Shown here: piece after piece, positions 2,863 through 9,924 of the stretch
How the letters are laid out: every line of letters starts with the position of its first letter
How positions within the stretch are numbered: the stretch's first letter is position 1
Assembly: GCF_003966715.1 (NCBI RefSeq)
Contig: NZ_AP018907.1
Coordinates: 3,460,001-3,524,000, forward strand
DNA length: 64,000 bases
Source of the DNA: Blastochloris tepida
GTDB lineage: Bacteria; Pseudomonadota; Alphaproteobacteria; Rhizobiales; Xanthobacteraceae
Direction of reading: 5' to 3'
Made by a program: the position numbers and the translations under genes
The notes under the pieces: generated by a model
What the model was told of the DNA's origin: nothing
The model's database searches: none
What the model saw: only the letters and a program-made list of their open reading frames with translations

Positions 2863-3513
2863 ATGGTCCAGCGCGTGGCGACGGTGGCGTTCCAGGGCGT
2901 CGAGGCGGTGCCGGTCGACGTCCAGGTCCAGGTCGCGCCGGGCCTGCCGGCCTTCACCCTGGTCGGCCTCGCCGACAAGGCGGTGTCGGAGGCGCGCGAG
3001 CGGGTGCGCGCGGCGCTGATCGCCTCGGGCCTCGCGCTGCCGGCGCGGCGCATCACCGTCAACCTCGCGCCGGCCGATCTGCCCAAGGAAGGCTCGCACT
3101 ACGACCTGCCGATCGCGCTGGCGCTGATGGCGGCGATCGGCGCAATTCCGTCGGACGCGCTCGACGGCTTCTCGGTGGTGGGGGAGCTGGCGCTCGACGG
3201 CCGGATCGCCCCGGTGGCCGGCGTGCTGCCGGCGGCGATCGCCGCCAATGCGAGCGGCCGCGGCCTGATCTGCCCCGGCGCCTGCGGGCCGGAGGCGGCG
3301 TGGGCCAGCCCCGACATGGAGATCCTGGCGCCCGCCTCGCTGATCCAGCTCGCCAACCACTTCAAGGGCACGCAGGTGCTGGCGCGGCCCCGCCCGCAGG
3401 TGGTCTCGCCCACCACGCCGCTGTCGGATCTCGCCGACATCAAGGGCCAGGAGAGCGCCAAGCGGGCGCTGGAGATCGCCGCGGCCGGCGGCCACAATCT
3501 CCTCATGCTGTAG
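2863..3513 (+). pseudogene. comM: comM/yifB 5' half (Mg-chelatase-like AAA ATPase), split by an integrated element
   Basis: Codes for the N-terminal lon-protease-like half of ComM/YifB (MVQRVATVAFQGVEAV..., SEARERVRAALIASG, GSHYDLPIAL). It reaches the conserved GQESAKRALEIAAAGG and then ends at HNLLML-stop, where the TAG belongs to the inserted element. ComM is known as a branch-migration helicase that helps integrate DNA taken up by transformation. The rest of the gene resumes at 9025. Joining 2863-3503 to 9027-9924 gives an uninterrupted 512-residue protein with HNLLLIGPPGAGKS. The fragment alone lacks the P-loop and should not work as an ATPase. A GGGGGAGC ribosome site precedes the ATG. 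Confidence 0.9.
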
Positions 3514-3525
3514 GCGTCAAGACCC
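3502..3525 (+). other. attL of the comM element
   Basis: Crossover dinucleotide CT at 3502-3503, followed by the element arm 3504-3525 (CATGCTGTAG...AAGACCC). Its reverse complement matches the right element arm 9003-9024 at 16 of 22 positions. Large serine recombinases are known to cut at a 2-bp core flanked by imperfect inverted arms. Bases to the left are comM sequence. Placement is inferred from symmetry plus restoration of the comM frame. Confidence 0.75.
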
Positions 3526-3668
3526 ATCAAAAGCACCTACACCGGCGAGAGGCGATATTCGCGCGGGGTTTTCTCGTATTGGCTGCCCACCGGACAACAG
3601 CATTCCAGCGGTTGCGGGCGGGGACGTGCCTGCTTAAATCGGATGCGGGTTCCTGACGAGGCGTCATT

Positions 3669-4232
3669 ATGTTTGGGTTCAAGAGCAAAAAACAGCGGAT
3701 GGCTGAGTTATTTCAAAATTTCGCTCTCGCTGAGATGCAGGGCGAGCGCCTGAAGCGGTTTGAAGAGACAATGGTTGCTCAAGGTTATCAGCCTCCATGT
3801 GGAGAGCGAAGAGACCAGAAACTCTGTGGCGCGGTCGCTGCTTTGTTCGCGCGGCAGGTAAACTTGGGCCAAGCAGTCCCCCCGTTGACGCCCCTATCTG
3901 ATCACGACTTTGCGGTTGTATGGGTGGCGCTTGTGGCAACGGACATGGCCTCCCAACTCACTGGTGCCGACATGGAATTATCGATGGTGGCAATGCCGGT
4001 TTGGCTCTGTACCCCACATGTGTTGTCGACATCGGAGGATGTTGTCCGGCTGATTAAAAGGCCGATGAATGCACACAATCGCATGATGCAGGCGCCCGGA
4101 TCGCAGAAGATTTCAGAAGACGTAGCTAGTCGATTTTACGACTGGTCTATCAAGGGCTACAAGGAACCTATTGATGTGACCAGGAGCCGTCTTGCTGACT
4201 ATGTTGAAATCCTTCGAGATTTCCGAGAATAA
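3669..4232 (+). CDS. Unknown protein carried by the comM element
   Basis: A 187-residue soluble-looking protein with a charged N-terminus (MFGFKSKKQRMAELFQNF), a central hydrophobic helix-rich part (DFAVVWVALVATDMASQL) and a charged C-terminus. No family was recognised and no catalytic motif stands out. The start is supported by GAGGCG eight bases before the ATG. Codon use is clearly less GC-biased than the chromosomal genes around the element, which fits recent acquisition. It is the only sizeable gene on this side of the element and faces inward from attL, so it is the best candidate cargo gene. A host-benefit or anti-phage role would be pure guesswork. Confidence 0.65.
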   Translation: MFGFKSKKQRMAELFQNFALAEMQGERLKRFEETMVAQGYQPPCGERRDQKLCGAVAALFARQVNLGQAVPPLTPLSDHDFAVVWVALVATDMASQLTGADMELSMVAMPVWLCTPHVLSTSEDVVRLIKRPMNAHNRMMQAPGSQKISEDVASRFYDWSIKGYKEPIDVTRSRLADYVEILRDFRE

Positions 4233-4772
4233 CAGGACGGCATCTAAAAAGACAGATGCTGAGACACGGTCACAAGGAAAATCGCCCGCAGCCTAGGGTG
4301 TGAGTGGTGCGTAGTGGTGGGACAGCCCTATGGGGTCATCACCCGATGAGTACCCTTCTCGTCCTCGGCGAGCGGCGATGCCGGTACGGGGGACTTGGCG
4401 CAGCGACGAAATTCGAGTGGACGTCTCACATGCCGGCGCCGAAACATTGCCGGGGGCCATTTCCTACAGGGTCCCATCCACGGTTCCCCCCGGCGCTCTC
4501 TTACGCTCACGAACGAGCGTGAAATGATGCCGAGGTCCGCGACACTGTGCCGGCTGAACGGGTGTGAAATCTCTGTCGATCAGACCATGCCTATGTGACT
4601 GATAAGGTGGCATTTTTAGCGTTCTTCACCGTTCACGGCCCATAATGAAAATGAACAGTGAAATGTCGCTCCGGGCGTAAGCACGAGGTGCTTCCTCGGG
4701 CGTCCTGAAGCCCCTGAAGGGTACCTGCCGAGGGCGGGGGTCGGACCCGCTCGTTCCCGGCTGGCGGTGGCC
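4233..4772. other. Element region without a convincing gene (possible origin or regulatory DNA)
   Basis: About 540 bp lie between the unknown gene and the 3' end of the helicase gene. Short open frames exist on both strands, but none has both a ribosome site and protein-like composition. Visible structure: GTGAAAT occurs three times (near 4519, 4564 and 4658), an inverted pair TTCACCGTTCA/TGAACAGTGAA lies at about 4625-4662, and ACGCTC/GAGCGT pair at about 4504-4520. Next to a RepA-like helicase gene these could be replication or control sites, but this is only suggestive. Confidence 0.3.
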
Positions 4773-5846
4773 CTAGAACTCGCTGTCGGCCTCGTCAGTG
4801 TCATCGATGGGGTCGAAGGCGTCGATGCCGGCTTCGCTGGCACGGGCGGCTTCCACGCATCGCTGCCAATCCGACGCCGTGATGAGCTTCTTGGCGATGG
4901 CCATGTTCTTCAGCTTCGACATCTTGCCGGTGGACACCTCCATCGCCTTGGCGATGTCGGCGTCTCTCGCGTACTGGCACGACCTTACGAGCGTCACGAC
5001 CCGCGCCAACTCGGCGTCCTCGCTCTCCTTCCAGCGCCACCGCAACACGCCCTTGGTGTTCTCCTCCAGCCACGCCGTCGTCTCGACGATGGTGTCGTTT
5101 CGGACACCCCGGAACTTCGTGAACGCCAGATCGAACGCGGCGGTGTGCCGGGAGGCAACGCCGTGGTTCTGCTTCAAGCCGACGATCACCTCGAAGGTCG
5201 TGGCGATCTTGGACGACCCCCGGTAGCTCTCGCCGCCCTTGTTGGAGTGGTGGACCAGGATGGTGGCGATACCGGCCTGCTTCATGCGCAGCAGGAAAGT
5301 CAGCACCGGCTGCATCGCTGCCGCGTCGTTCTCATCGTCCACCCCGGCGAGCACTGAGAAGTTATCGAGAATGACGAGGTCGGCCTTCATGCATCGGGCA
5401 CGGGAGAAGACCACGTCCTGGCCTTCCTCGTCGGCGATGTCGGGGAATGGTGCGTTCGGGTCCTGATGGCTGCGCACCAACAGCCGCAGGTTCTTCGCCG
5501 CAGCGTCGGCGTCCAGGCCCTCCACGGCGTCCTTCAACGCCACGAGGCGATCCTTCAAATCCTGAAGGGCCATCTCGCCGTCAATGTAGAGGACGCGGAA
5601 GGGACGCGGCGCTTTCCAGCCGAGGAACTTGCCGCCGCCGGCTGCCGCGAGTGCGATGGACAGGCCCACCATGGTCTTGCCGACGCCGGGTGCGGCCCAG
5701 AGCATCATGCTCTCGCCCTGCTTCATCAGCGGGTCGAGGATGTAGTCGCGGACGGGGAGGTCCGCGCTCAGTAATTCACCGAGGGACAGGGAGCGAAGGC
5801 GAGCGCCATCGTTTGCCCGACGGTCATTCCGTTCGGTCATGTTCAC
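4773..5846 (-). CDS. RepA-like AAA ATPase (DnaB/RecA-type hexameric helicase family)
   Basis: A 357-residue P-loop ATPase of the AAA_25/RSF1010-RepA type. Walker A is WAAPGVGKTMVGLS near residues 50-63, an early acidic motif is VLYIDGEM near 87-94, Walker B is ADLVILDNFS near 158, and VHHSNKGGESYRGSSK near 200 is the following motif. The C-terminal 80 residues look like a winged or helix-turn-helix segment (DADIAKAMEVSTGKMSKLKN). RepA proteins unwind origins of small plasmids, and relatives occur in phages and integrative elements. This suggests the excised circle can replicate or that the element needs helicase loading. It is the last gene of a minus-strand set beginning at 6842. Confidence 0.8.
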   Translation of the reverse strand: MNMTERNDRRANDGARLRSLSLGELLSADLPVRDYILDPLMKQGESMMLWAAPGVGKTMVGLSIALAAAGGGKFLGWKAPRPFRVLYIDGEMALQDLKDRLVALKDAVEGLDADAAAKNLRLLVRSHQDPNAPFPDIADEEGQDVVFSRARCMKADLVILDNFSVLAGVDDENDAAAMQPVLTFLLRMKQAGIATILVHHSNKGGESYRGSSKIATTFEVIVGLKQNHGVASRHTAAFDLAFTKFRGVRNDTIVETTAWLEENTKGVLRWRWKESEDAELARVVTLVRSCQYARDADIAKAMEVSTGKMSKLKNMAIAKKLITASDWQRCVEAARASEAGIDAFDPIDDTDEADSEF

Positions 5847-5926
5847 CTATTGAAGGATGGGAGATGTTCGCCAAGCGGCCAGCCAAGCCCTGTCGAGGGC
5901 AAGGCGGTGCGCGTTGGCCTGTTACG

Positions 5927-6088
5927 TCACCTATCGCGGCACCAAGTTGAGCGCGTCAGGAGCGTCGGGAGACGCGACAGCAGGGGTGAGGGACACGGTG
6001 CGCGATAGTCAATTGTCGCCCCTATTTCCGTTACCGGCCTGACTTTAATGGTCATGCCGGCTGCGGGAGCATCGTCAAAGACGTCCAT
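5927..6088 (-). CDS. Possible 53-residue protein overlapping the preceding tiny ORF
   Basis: Open frame MDVFDDAPAAGMTIKVRPV... ending TRSTWCRDR. Its ATG overlaps the last codons of the 33-residue membrane ORF in another frame, an arrangement typical of translational coupling. The first half is protein-like (acidic, then TIKVRPVTEIGATIDYR); the second half has a less convincing composition. No family is recognised. It ends 81 bp before the RepA-like gene. Real expression is uncertain. Confidence 0.35.
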   Translation of the reverse strand: MDVFDDAPAAGMTIKVRPVTEIGATIDYRAPCPSPLLSRLPTLLTRSTWCRDR

Positions 6089-6176
6089 CAGGCGACGAGC
6101 CCGGTCCTTTGTACTTGGAAGCTGCCCAGATCACGAGAACCTGAACTAGGATTAAGCCGATGACGATGGGGTCCAC
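6075..6176 (-). CDS. Possible 33-residue single-pass membrane protein
   Basis: GTG start with AAGAGG about ten bases upstream. The product is one hydrophobic helix (IVIGLILVQVLVIWAA) followed by a basic, glycine-rich tail (SKYKGPGSSPDGRL). Such a clean transmembrane pattern in so short a frame is unlikely by chance, but the evidence is only sequence pattern plus the ribosome site. It overlaps the end of the broken gene upstream and the start of the 53-residue frame downstream. A holin-like, toxin-like or regulatory micropeptide role is possible but unsupported. Confidence 0.45.
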   Translation of the reverse strand: MDPIVIGLILVQVLVIWAASKYKGPGSSPDGRL

Positions 6177-6485
6177 GATTGTGTTGCCTCTTGAGAAGCG
6201 GAAAGCCTGCCGTATGAGACGATAACACGGCGGAGAATGGCCCGGCCCTCGGTGAACCGGTGGAGCTGCATCGCGTAGTCGGCGTCGTCCTGGGTGAAGG
6301 GAACCGGCTTTGCCTTGCCTTCGGCGGTGGCCTTGGTGGCCTCGCGATAGGCTTGGCGGATGTGGGTGGGGTGGTTGTTGTCAACGGCGTTGCCACCGCC
6401 CCAATCTCAAATCCCGCTGTACGGCCCGCAACGAGTCCGTGGCTGGCGCCTGTCGTTTCCTGCTCCCAACCTAGGGCTTGACCAT
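6152..6485 (-). pseudogene. Broken small gene of the comM element
   Basis: An ATG at 6485 follows AGGAGAGG at good spacing, but a TAG stops it after four codons. The same frame then reads KRQAPATDSLRAVQRDLRLG before a frame change. The next frame continues protein-like with no start codon (NNHPTHIRQAYREATK, FTQDDADYAMQLHRFTEGRA, ending near 6152). The simplest reading is one ~100-residue gene with a premature stop and a frameshift. No family is recognised. Alternatively a non-canonical start serves the downstream part. A sequencing error is also possible. Confidence 0.4.
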
Positions 6486-6524
6486 AAGGCCTCTCCTGGA
6501 GCCGCTACGGGCCGTCCAGAGCCC

Positions 6525-6842
6525 TCAGGGGTTTTCAGGGAACACGATGTGCCAGACGGCGGTGGGTGCGGCCACGATGTCGTTGAACCCGGACGCATTC
6601 AGGTCGTCGGATGCCGGCAACAGGATCGCCGGCAAGCCCACATCATCGGCGACACGACGCGCCTTGAGGTCGTCGGCCACGAGGCCGCGAACGGGATCGG
6701 TCATCAGGCCCAAAACCCAAGGTTCGGTTCGCGCCAGGAAGCTCCAGGCCGTCTCATAGCCGGCCGGGAGGGACGGCGAGAGGAGAGCAGCGGGGAGCGT
6801 CAGTGACGGAAGAACGGGCGGGGTCGTCTCGTAAGCGATCAT
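6525..6842 (-). CDS. Unknown 105-residue protein
   Basis: Open frame MIAYETTPPVLPSLTLPAAL... ending VWHIVFPENP, with AGAGGA eight bases before the ATG. The composition is protein-like, with a proline-rich start and an alpha/beta-looking remainder (LVADDLKARRVADDVGLPAILLPASDDLNAS). No domain was recognised. It is the first gene of the minus-strand set that leads to the RepA-like helicase. A short dyad (TTGATacgATCAA, 6889-6901) sits 47 bp upstream where an operator or promoter would be expected. Confidence 0.55.
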   Translation of the reverse strand: MIAYETTPPVLPSLTLPAALLSPSLPAGYETAWSFLARTEPWVLGLMTDPVRGLVADDLKARRVADDVGLPAILLPASDDLNASGFNDIVAAPTAVWHIVFPENP

Positions 6843-7212
6843 AGCATGTCCTCTGTTGTCCTGGCGGTTAACACCAGACGGAAGGACATTGATACGATCA
6901 ACCGAGCCAGAAAAAGTTAGGTGTGGCCTGGATTTTGGGGAGATGGCGGGTTAGACATCCTGTCGTTCTGGCGAAGAAGCCTGCCAAATCGGGAGAGGCC
7001 GTCAGATGTCAGGCAATTTAACATTCAACCCATGAACCTGGACTAAGCCGCTTGGGTTCTGACACGCTCCACAAGCTGCGACGCTCCCGCATCGTTCGGC
7101 ACGGTCCTACTATCCGGAAGGGCTGCGGCGCGGTCTGATGGGCTTGACCCAGAGGAATTCTCTGGGTCAGTAGGTCTGCGCATCATACAGTCGTGCCGGG
7201 GGGAGGGCAGTA
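6843..7212. promoter_or_regulatory. Divergent control region of the element, with two dyads
   Basis: This 370-bp gap separates the minus-strand helicase set from the plus-strand 49-residue gene, so promoters for both directions should lie here. Two dyads are visible: TTGATacgATCAA at 6889-6901, and a perfect 10-bp inverted repeat TGACCCAGAG-GAATT-CTCTGGGTCA at 7145-7169. The second has no T-run, so it looks more like an operator than a terminator. No repressor gene was recognised in the element. Confidence 0.4.
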
Positions 7213-7362
7213 ATGGCGGGGATGATTGGCCTAGTATCTGTCGTGGGGATGGTCTTGCTCATACCAGAATGGCCATGGTGGAAAGCAGCCGCGCTTGGAG
7301 TCGTGGTCGGGCTCGTGGGGAGCTTTCTCGTTGGATACGCTCAGGGGCGTATGATGCGATAG
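7213..7362 (+). CDS. 49-residue two-helix membrane protein
   Basis: A small gene with GGGAGGG just upstream of the ATG. The product has two hydrophobic helices (IGLVSVVGMVLLIPEW and ALGVVVGLVGSFLVG) joined by a tryptophan-rich turn (PEWPWWK), and it ends YAQGRMMR. The hairpin topology resembles small holins, TA-type peptides or accessory membrane proteins, but no family is identified. It is convergent with the recombinase gene, whose stop is 58 bp away. The 10-bp perfect dyad 7145-7169 ends 43 bp upstream and may control it. Confidence 0.6.
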   Translation: MAGMIGLVSVVGMVLLIPEWPWWKAAALGVVVGLVGSFLVGYAQGRMMR

Positions 7363-7420
7363 GCCAAAGTCAATCGCGGCGCCATTTCCCTTGTCCATGA
7401 GGACACCGATTGAACGCAGA

Positions 7421-8974
7421 TCAATCTTCATCGACCCACATGAACATGATGGAGGTAAACCCTCCATGCTTCCAATTCATGTCCATCACCCCTCGTCGAT
7501 AATCGACAATCACGCTCGAAAAGCACTCTCGGAGGCGTAGGTTGGCCTTGGCTTGATCGAAGGGTTCCGCAGTTAACGCCGACTCCAGTTCGTCAACTCG
7601 CCGAATTAAGAGGGCGGGGGTTGATGCTGATGCCAGTTCGATAAGTTTGGCCTTCTCCGCTTCGCATTGTTCAATATCCCGTTCCAATTCGCGAATGGTC
7701 CGAACGATCTCCGCAGAGGTTCCCTTACGCAAAGCCATAACCAGTCGCCGAACCTCTTCCCGCTTGCGGTCAATTTCGTCTTCCAGCCCCGATATTGAAG
7801 CATCGAGATACGCTCCATCGCCCCCCGAAGTTGGGCAAGTCCCGCAAAGGAAGCTTGCATGTTGGCGTAGGGCCTCTTCAACAAAGTCCAGCTTCACTGA
7901 ACGATACTGACAGCCGTTGCCAGACTTCGCCGCGTCGCAGACGAGGTAGGGGCGGCCAGCTTTCTTGCTCGCTCCCTTGGTTACGCGTGTCATCGTGGCA
8001 CCGCATACGGGGCATTTAGCCAATCCCCCAAGTACATTTCGGACGACGCCAGACTGTGCATGCCTCCCCCTCAGTGGCGCCGAGGTGCCAGACTGGAGCG
8101 CTTTCACGCGCTGGTACAGTTCCTCTTCGATCACGGCGGGATAATAGTTCGGCACGGGGTCGAGCGGCTTGCGCCTCTTCCTATAGTCTCCCGCGTCCTC
8201 AACGATGTGTGGCACGAGTGTGCCGATCACGGCGGGGTTGCTGATGATCTTGGCAACATAGGAGCGATGCCAGCGGGTCGCCGGTTGACGCTTGCCGTCG
8301 CCCCAGGTGGGCACTCCATCGCGATTGAGTGCCTCTGTGATGGCGTGTTGTCCCTGCCCGGCTGCCAAGGCTGCAAAAATGCGCCGGACAACCTCTGCCC
8401 GATCCGGGATGATGTCGAAGCCGCTCCTATCCGCCCTGGGCTCAAGCCATGCTGGACAACGGGTGGTGAGGATCTTTTCCCCTACGTCCCGGCGTTTGCG
8501 TGACCATGCCTCCTTGAGCCGCCGCGCCTTAGTCTGGCTCTCCTCATGGGCTCGCATCATGACGAGCAGGCTTTCCATGATCCGGAAGGGGTTCGCCTTC
8601 ACGATCTCCAGTGTCCATTCGCGGCCATCCGCGAGGGTCACGATTGTGATGCCGGCGTTGATGATCTCCTGGAAGATCGGCAGTGCCTCCCAGGGGTCCA
8701 TCCGGCTGATGCGATCGAAACTCTCGACCAGCAGATAGCTCCCTGGCTCAACAGTTCCGGTCTGAACGGCCAACCGAAAATCAGCGAGGCTGCCACGTTC
8801 AGCGTTGCGGCCACGAAAAGCGGACACGCCGAGGTCTCGAAAGGTAAGGTCTTGGTCGAGTGTCAGCCCGTGACGGTCGGCGTACAGCTTCGCGGCTTCC
8901 GTCTGCCGACGGAAACTGTCGCCTTTCATCTGCTCGGGGGTGGAGAACCGGAGATAGGAGTAGGCTTTCGGCAT
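7421..8974 (-). CDS. Large serine recombinase (integrase/excisionase of the comM element)
   Basis: A 517-residue site-specific recombinase. The resolvase-type catalytic domain covers about residues 1-155 (SYLRFSTPEQ with the nucleophilic serine near residue 11, SFRRQ, DLGVSAFRG, ESFDRISR). It is followed by a 'recombinase' DNA-binding domain (PDRAEVVRRIFAALAAGQG, RWHRSYVAKIISNPAVIG), a zinc ribbon (CPVCG...YLVCDAAKSGNGC) and a charged coiled coil near 395-440. This is the standard layout of large serine integrases. A GAGGA ribosome site precedes the ATG. The start codon is only 29 bp from the element arm of attR, so promoter elements must overlap attR or comM. Confidence 0.92.
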   Translation of the reverse strand: MPKAYSYLRFSTPEQMKGDSFRRQTEAAKLYADRHGLTLDQDLTFRDLGVSAFRGRNAERGSLADFRLAVQTGTVEPGSYLLVESFDRISRMDPWEALPIFQEIINAGITIVTLADGREWTLEIVKANPFRIMESLLVMMRAHEESQTKARRLKEAWSRKRRDVGEKILTTRCPAWLEPRADRSGFDIIPDRAEVVRRIFAALAAGQGQHAITEALNRDGVPTWGDGKRQPATRWHRSYVAKIISNPAVIGTLVPHIVEDAGDYRKRRKPLDPVPNYYPAVIEEELYQRVKALQSGTSAPLRGRHAQSGVVRNVLGGLAKCPVCGATMTRVTKGASKKAGRPYLVCDAAKSGNGCQYRSVKLDFVEEALRQHASFLCGTCPTSGGDGAYLDASISGLEDEIDRKREEVRRLVMALRKGTSAEIVRTIRELERDIEQCEAEKAKLIELASASTPALLIRRVDELESALTAEPFDQAKANLRLRECFSSVIVDYRRGVMDMNWKHGGFTSIMFMWVDED

Positions 8975-8988
8975 GGCGTCCTCGGAGC

Positions 8989-9924
8989 ATGACCATAACG
9001 ACGGGTCTCCAGAACTACAACATGCTGCTGATCGGCCCGCCCGGCGCCGGCAAGTCGATGCTGGCGGCCCGCCTGCCCTCGATCCTGCCGCCGCTCGCCC
9101 CGGCCGAGCTGCTCGACGTGTCGATGGTGATGAGCGTCGCCGGCGAGCTTTCGGGCGGCGCGCTCACCGACCGCCGGCCGTTCCGGGCGCCGCACCATTC
9201 GGCCTCGATGGCGGCGCTGGTCGGCGGCGGCCTCAGAGCCCGCCCCGGCGAGGTGTCGCTCGCCCACAAGGGCGTGCTGTTCCTCGACGAGCTGCCGGAG
9301 TTCCAGCCGCAGGTGCTGGATTCGCTGCGCCAGCCGATCGAGACCGGCGAGGTGGTGATCGCCCGCGCCAATCACCGCGTCACCTACCCCGCCCGCTTCA
9401 TGCTGGTGGCGGCGATGAACCCCTGCCGCTGCGGCGAGGCCGACACGCCCGGCTACACCTGCCGGCGCGGCCCCAATGCCCGCTGCAAGGCCGAGTATCA
9501 GAGCCGGCTGTCCGGCCCGCTGCTCGACCGCATCGACCTCACCATCCAGGTGGCGGCGGTCACCGCCGCCGATCTGGTGCAGCCGGCCCCGGCCGAGGGC
9601 AGCAAAGAGGTGGCGGCGCGGGTGGCGGCGGCACGGGCGCGGCAGGCCGAGCGCTTCGCCGCGCTCGGGCAGCCGCACCTCCTCACCAATGCCGAGGCGG
9701 CCGGTCCGCTGCTCGATGAGATCACCCGCCCCGACGCCGCCGGGATGACGCTGCTGCGCGAGGCGGCCGAGAGCCTGCGGCTCACCGCCCGCGGCTATCA
9801 CCGGGTGCTGAAGGTGGCCCGCACCATCGCCGATCTCGACGGCGCCGAGACGGTCGGCCGCCGGCATCTGGCCGAGGCGCTGTCCTATCGGGCTGCGGCC
9901 GACCGGGCGGCGCAGGCAGCGTGA
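8989..9924 (+). pseudogene. comM: comM/yifB 3' half (AAA ATPase domain), split by the element
   Basis: Codes for the ATPase half of ComM: Walker A GPPGAGKS, Walker B KGVLFLDELPEF, the sensor segment MNPCRCGE with its zinc-ligand cysteines, and the C-terminal Mg-chelatase extension (LRLTARGYHRVLKVARTIADL). True comM sequence begins at 9025; the codons before it come from the element. An in-frame ATG at 8989 could restart translation and add MTITTGLQNYN before the P-loop, but its ribosome site is poor. Without the N-terminal half, normal function is unlikely. The coding quality of this half has not decayed, which suggests recent or reversible insertion. Confidence 0.88.
9003..9026 (+). other. 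attR of the comM element
   Basis: Element arm 9003-9024 (GGGTCTCCAG...AACATG) followed by the crossover dinucleotide CT at 9025-9026. Rightward sequence is comM (GCTGATCGGCCCG). Joined to the left arm through CT it gives a 46-bp attP with 22-bp imperfect inverted arms. The reciprocal attB reads AATCTC-CT-GCTGATC and codes NLLLI. Confidence 0.75.

Follow-up and report, generated by a model that had tools for sequence, protein, structure and literature searches.

A large serine recombinase element interrupts comM just ahead of the P-loop in Blastochloris tepida, with relatives at the same codon across Proteobacteria

What has parted the two halves of comM in Blastochloris tepida, at which bases did it enter, and could the gene still be rejoined? 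These questions are raised by a 64,000-nucleotide stretch (hereafter the window; contig NZ_AP018907.1, positions 3,460,001 to 3,524,000) of a 3.95 Mb genome that is assembled as a single contig. In Pfam and NCBIfam profile searches, comM (yifB) starts at 2863, is interrupted at 3503, and has its second part at 9025-9924, with the break at 3502-3503/9025-9026 and a 5.5-kb element encoding a large serine recombinase (LSR) between the halves. Comparison of sequences shows the insertion, its predicted attachment (att) sites, and a target codon common to a wider family, and we hold it highly probable that the LSR catalyzed the insertion into comM at base-level att sites and that this codon is the family-wide target.

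The 5' part of comM (2863..3503, plus strand) carries the ChlI/Lon-like domain (PF13541, with PF01078 positions 1-28) and reaches as far as the Leu codons that precede the P-loop. In its present state, the frame runs from 2863 to 3513, with a TAG stop at 3511-3513, and contains ChlI and positions 1-28 of Mg_chelatase, matching TIGR00368 at 4-217. The 3' part (9027..9924, plus strand) holds the remaining pre-P-loop strand, the AAA+ core, and the C-terminal domain (PF01078 22-206, PF13335), such that the frame ending at 9924 takes up Mg_chelatase from position 22, passes into Mg_chelatase_C, and matches TIGR00368 at 202-499. Both the domains and the TIGR00368 ranges agree with a preliminary description of this locus, in which one ComM/YifB gene was seen in two halves around a large serine recombinase. 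Moreover, when the host flanks are joined at CT, the frame is open for 512 codons up to a stop, in keeping with the 512-codon frame and the attB coding HNLLLIGPPG that had been proposed there. When compared with its own genome, the ComM 3' half finds one further match, a weak one of 72 residues with 33% identity, and we therefore see no second comM. GC content lies at 0.64-0.78 in 500-base segments of the flanks versus 0.56-0.65 inside the element.

The recombinase itself is a 517-residue protein (7421..8974, minus strand), with its Resolvase (PF00239), Recombinase (PF07508), and zinc ribbon (PF13408) domains all above cut-off and a phrog_95 integrase match (E=3.5e-69), which is the architecture of LSR integrases of about 500 residues. 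Its gene starts about 50 bp from attR, the right junction. Here, the dinucleotide CT (plus strand) lies in register at attL (3502..3503) and attR (9025..9026) and forms the center of a palindrome. Its arms, as predicted for attP (both given on the plus strand), are a left one at 9003..9024, beginning GGGTCT, and a right one at 3504..3525, ending AAGACCC. That these 22-bp arms are inverted matches at 16/22 positions had been noted in the preliminary description, and our count reproduces it; among 20,000 shuffled arm pairs, none equaled it. The predicted attP is accordingly a 46-bp imperfect palindrome about a 2-bp CT core found in both attL and attR, as is typical of LSR sites, and the predicted attB is the comM segment coding HNLL/LIGPP, with the crossover at the first two bases of the second of these Leu codons, just ahead of the P-loop.

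Since the two halves in register also have in common AA (in the Asn codon) and TG (3506-3507/9029-9030), and an out-of-register 7-base repeat, CATGCTG, occurs at both junctions, the crossover might alternatively lie elsewhere. In fact, TG as the core would rebuild NLLMI, the residues commonest in relatives. However, the palindrome about TG scores 5/24 as opposed to 17/24 about CT, which rules it out, while CATGCTG, besides failing by the palindrome, would give two extra codons at a place where comM length is constant in the relatives examined. We consider a crossover at either of these highly improbable, the more so as 13 other elements have their center at the CT position. For these, attP was modeled at 26 crossover positions for every element with both comM junctions readable, namely the window element, L002, L003, L005, L006, L008, L013, L014, L016, L061, L063, L064, L065, and L067 (our locus labels; n=14). 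All 14 palindromes have their peak at one common position, the first two bases of the codon that comes second after the conserved Asn (HN), with peak scores of 12-19 of 24 and a sum of 217 versus 115 at the next best of the 26 positions; the CT crossover proposed for the window is therefore borne out well beyond it. The core dinucleotide, CT or TT, is common to attL and attR in 11 of the 14. The arms vary among elements; examples are GGTCT opposite AGACC, and GGTG or GGTGCA opposite CACC or TGCACC.

How far does this target extend? A scan of genome contigs gave 19 LSR relatives, of which 14 lie in comM at the same codon, eight judged by both junctions and six by one (L004, L007, L009, L012, L015, and L017). 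These 14 come from Roseomonadaceae, Rhizobiaceae, Phyllobacteriaceae, Alsobacteraceae, Methylobacteriaceae, Sphingomonadales, Halomonadaceae, Pseudomonadaceae, and one betaproteobacterium. In a class-level sample of 385 genomes, the window's own included, nine have such an LSR at E<=1e-25, and seven of the nine are in comM: G000, G024, G246, G438, G439, and G074 (our genome labels) at this codon, with G074 placed from a single junction, plus G225 near residue 32. The other two, G206 and G123, have the LSR outside comM and full-length comM frames on other contigs. At the same threshold, 35 of 398 genomes in a phylum-level sample have an LSR, and 7 of 30 loci adjoin comM while 23 have no comM within 1.5 kb; as the flanks extended no more than 1.5 kb either way, a comM half farther off is possible. 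These 30 are one locus per genome from 30 of the 35 matching genomes, the other five genomes and second matches falling outside the count, and G000, G024, and G123 occur in both this set and the class sample. Altogether, 26 loci, the window included, have an LSR at the P-loop codon (14 with both junctions), which matches the earlier expectation that the same element type should be found in the comM of many hosts across Proteobacteria. Exclusive targeting of comM by the LSR relatives is ruled out, given that no comM was found beside 5 of the 19 contig relatives (L010, L011, L018, L019, and L020) or beside the 23 of 30 phylum loci. Separately, we observed many related LSRs in family f188 (L081, L083-L088, L090, L091, and L095), some of its genomes having several; the short flanks examined there contain no comM. 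At another locus, L068 (G019), the comM 3' half is preceded at the P-loop site by foreign DNA with a 982-residue open reading frame (ORF), and no LSR match was found before the contig end.

In phylogenetic trees, the window LSR falls in a group of 12, all of them in comM, with 11 at this codon and one near the 5' end. Support for this group is 98 in a quick tree of 54 rows (the short rows L090 and L095 excluded) and 99/100 in a more careful tree of 29 rows. Across the 54-row tree, which has numerous weak inner branches and several long-branched rows, the comM label changes 6 times versus a mean of 18.3 for shuffled labels. The LSR gene adjoins the 5' half of comM in some elements and the 3' half in others, with 6 changes of side on the 29-row tree and 7 on the 54-row tree; when only the well supported branches of the 29-row tree are used, the 3'-half label, set against all other rows, is forced to change only 2 times. 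With arms this close to symmetry, it should be the core that sets orientation, and a flip of side would therefore imply that attP has turned relative to the integrase gene in those lineages.

Two other genomes of the genus, G044 and G801, have an uninterrupted comM that is collinear, codon for codon, with the window join and agrees with it in length and frame, and the DNA on either side of comM matches that of G044 at 90-96%. At the site itself, G044 reads AACCTGTTGATGGTC and G801 reads AACCTCCTGATGGTC, where the window join predicts AATCTCCTGCTGATC; in codons, these are AAC CTG TTG ATG GTC and AAC CTC CTG ATG GTC, respectively, for a predicted AAT CTC CTG CTG ATC, and the intact core is TT in G044 and CT in G801. 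The preliminary description had counted an intact relative that differs from the predicted join as evidence against itself. Taken literally, such differences are what we found, yet we judge that demand too strict and, given the codon-for-codon collinearity of the genes, read them as ordinary between-species variation. We had also considered that these differences mark host escape at attB, which is not convincing, as the signal against G044 is unmatched in the G801 comparison. Versus G044, the 15 nt at the site differ at 5/15, the densest run in a gene with 88/1539 differences (5/1525 such stretches score as high), whereas versus G801 they differ at 3/15, with 422/1525 stretches as high. Among 24 intact genes of the family, the core Leu codon ranks 3 of 54 conserved Leu columns in TTR use and 5 of 60 Leu columns in synonymous variety.

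Several points weigh against a site-specific insertion by an element that is still mobile. Three palindrome peaks are narrow (13 vs 11 in L003, and 12 vs 10 in both L013 and L067), and in 3 of the 14 elements (L014, L061, and L065) the first core base is unlike between attL and attR (C versus T), which calls for an assumption of drift or of mismatch tolerance. Moreover, the window element is represented in G044 by short fragments only and has no match in G801; being in neither, it gives no view of mobility within the genus. No directionality factor was recognized in the element. Finally, the genomes compared include no same-species empty site, and excision and the circular form are predictions.

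Is the insertion then young, reversible, or dead? Of the comM differences that fall on the window branch (counted by base versus G044 and polarized by outgroup), 26 are synonymous and 8 lie in amino-acid-changing codons; for the G044 branch the numbers are 36 and 4, with 13 differences left unpolarized (9 synonymous and 4 in amino-acid-changing codons), when random change would be 72% non-synonymous. This pattern suggests that comM was under selection over most of the window branch, either until lately or with restoration at times. As the halves look selected, the insertion would be young or reversible, between which these counts cannot tell. Alternatively, it may be dead and fixed, comM having become a permanent pseudogene around a relic element. 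The missing directionality factor agrees with this, as does the interval 5850-7400, in which there is no recognized gene among the ORFs scanned and a likely remnant in common with another locus of the genus. This remnant, a fragment of about 136 bp (6238..6373), is 80-88% alike to two other sites in the genus, and we read it as probably derived from a gene because its better match overlaps a 193-residue ORF on the minus strand (L077:10464-11045). Still, the LSR and ATPase frames are open, the att arms match well, and the comM halves have changed mostly at synonymous positions, and a dead insertion thus seems rather unlikely to us. A young or reversible insertion agrees better with these features. 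Under regulated gene integrity, a target gene is off while the element is integrated and would be restored by regulated excision; the term is used in the accessible part of PMC10111431. The abstract of Mageeney 2020 (TIGER) reportedly names yifB as one of the genes that integrative elements interrupt in this way. In the window, comM is interrupted, a precise join would restore its frame, and its halves look selected. As for the ComM 3' fragment, an in-frame ATG lies ahead of it at 8989, and also at 9022. We regard a new start there as probably incidental, since, of 21 3'-side junctions, 7 have an in-frame ATG that comes no later than the first Leu codon and is free of a following stop, and 14 have none of this kind.

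Besides the LSR, the element encodes an AAA_25 RepA/DnaB-like ATPase (4773..5846, minus strand; PF13481, E=1e-29, with phage primase/helicase PHROGs), likely a helicase of plasmid or phage type, and a 187-residue protein of unknown function (3669..4232, plus strand) that is below cut-off in Pfam, PHROGs, NCBIfam, and PADLOC. Neither of these two proteins has a PADLOC family match. By sequence comparison, the stretch at 4386..4533 is 75% alike to L076:9679-9831 in G044. No capsid, tail, terminase, or packaging gene appears among the scanned ORFs (five element ORFs in Pfam and six in PHROGs, with other short ORFs outside the scan), nor do relaxase or conjugation genes among the five scanned in Pfam, nor a TnsABC/TniQ domain in the element ORFs scanned. 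An Rfam scan of 3400-9200 gave nothing at the gathering threshold, and a promoter scan found 0 versus 1.0 expected. In plasmid and phage collections, matches to the LSR are all below 60% identity, and the ATPase has one weak partial match in each. A 52-kb viral contig (L108) starts at an LSR 44% identical to that of the window, from which phage carriage of an LSR relative may be supposed. We also noticed mobile-looking regions that share fragments with the window element, L077:8626-15172 in its own genome and L076 on contig 44 of G044, with ORFs that by eye are a tyrosine integrase and a short serine recombinase.

The 14 elements range from 4.8 to 14.2 kb. A short serine resolvase is found in nine of them, these being interlinked by blastp and one confirmed in Pfam. 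Otherwise, the cargo of the relatives, as sampled from 10 of the other 13 elements (all but L013, L014, and L016) in 20 proteins by Pfam and 18 by PADLOC, includes HNH or Mrr-type nucleases, a type II methyltransferase, an AIPR/AbiU-like protein, a transposase, and a relaxase with a RepB primase; L064 has a relaxase of MobA/VirD2 type.

Why comM should be struck so often is less readily answered. The target may be merely a conserved DNA word that suits the integrase, with the loss of ComM bringing the element no gain: the pre-P-loop strand is well conserved in the protein, and LSR relatives with no adjoining comM do exist, as counted above. We take this as a serious possibility, somewhat short of an even chance. 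Set against it, other machineries strike comM at other points, according to the accessible parts of PMC10293859 and PMC4774983, and LSRs also enter the gene elsewhere. The LSR of G225 (L062), a member of the window group with the GGTCT/AGACC arm motif, is in comM at about residue 32, with a core of AC on both sides and a palindrome of 12/24; another position ties but has an unlike core, and the evidence for this site is weaker than that at the P-loop codon. Moreover, in Pseudomonas entomophila 6C6 (L016:15856-17981), comM is cut twice, by a P-loop LSR element and by another LSR at about residue 110 of the comM 3' half. A second LSR site near the comM 5' end, together with a probable third farther downstream, suggests convergence on the gene. 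Tentatively, comM might be a convergent target, with LSR lineages at three points (near residue 32, in the pre-P-loop strand, and near residue 110 of the 3' half), both integrase orientations, and loss of ComM itself selected, though we rate this as possible rather than probable. If true, ComM loss would hinder removal of the element by transformation, and a constant codon with changing attP arms would reflect selection on the target gene and not recombinase preference. Further oddities at comM were seen. Downstream of the second LSR cut in L016 is an ORF that looks relaxase-like by eye, and in Cobetia (L006) the comM 3' half ends after about residue 71, its tail not being found in the locus. 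G056 (L070:1445-5297) has a comM interrupted close to Walker B by an insert that encodes a transposase, presumably of IS1595 type as judged by eye, and a companion ORF of 363 residues.

Taken together, a small integrative element with no recognized phage or conjugation genes has very probably entered comM by LSR-mediated attP x attB recombination, separating the Lon-like domain from the AAA+ core with no reading frame restored across the gene. It belongs to a broad group of comM-targeting LSR elements in Proteobacteria that differ in cargo and attP arms and keep the crossover codon constant. Putatively, the element can still excise, and comM would be off while it is integrated. Such a loss may favor the element, as ComM helps replace mobile DNA by transformation; in line with this, mobile elements that disrupt comM are described in the accessible parts of PMC4774983 and PMC11472951, with the suggestion that the disruption protects them from removal by transformation. 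By analogy with work in other bacteria, natural transformation may be lowered in this host. Its genome has ComEC-like and DprA-like genes (each also passing its cut-off in 10 of the 14 genomes used as controls), and no PilQ above the curated cut-off, a strict test that 1 of the 14 controls passed. Base-level att sites are now at hand for a widespread serine integrase group that interrupts a transformation-linked gene, and the defined attP/attB pairs make it testable whether ComM is disabled to avoid element removal.

Judging from the accessible parts of the sources, the LSR of phage WO (sr1WO, from Wolbachia) integrates into the host magnesium chelatase gene, with gene pieces flanking the prophage (PMC9203015 and PMC5447182). 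The window element resembles it, by gene description, in its LSR entering a magnesium chelatase gene, and differs from this full phage in being a 5.5-kb element with no phage structural genes in the scanned ORFs. Like Tn6022 (TnsF-guided) and other AbaR-type Tn7-like elements, and like Tsy, it is part of a pattern of comM insertion across species, but Tn6022 and Tsy, as far as the accessible part of PMC10293859 goes, insert at the Walker B region and are of Tn7 or tyrosine-recombinase type, whereas here an LSR uses the codons before Walker A. A further likeness is to the mobile elements with CF65_00446-like integrases, for which orthologous comM insertions in several species are given in the accessible part of PMC4774983 (Croucher 2016). 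In the literature on comM, yifB, and Mg chelatase insertions, mostly without subscription papers, we did not find a constant P-loop-strand codon across Proteobacteria. As these sources present it, LSR entry into a magnesium chelatase gene, comM as a target of mobile elements, and its disruption as a block to transformation are known already. The window element is thus a well resolved further case of a known kind of comM/Mg chelatase insertion, and it adds a recombinase class at a point in comM distinct from that of the Tn7-like and Tsy elements.

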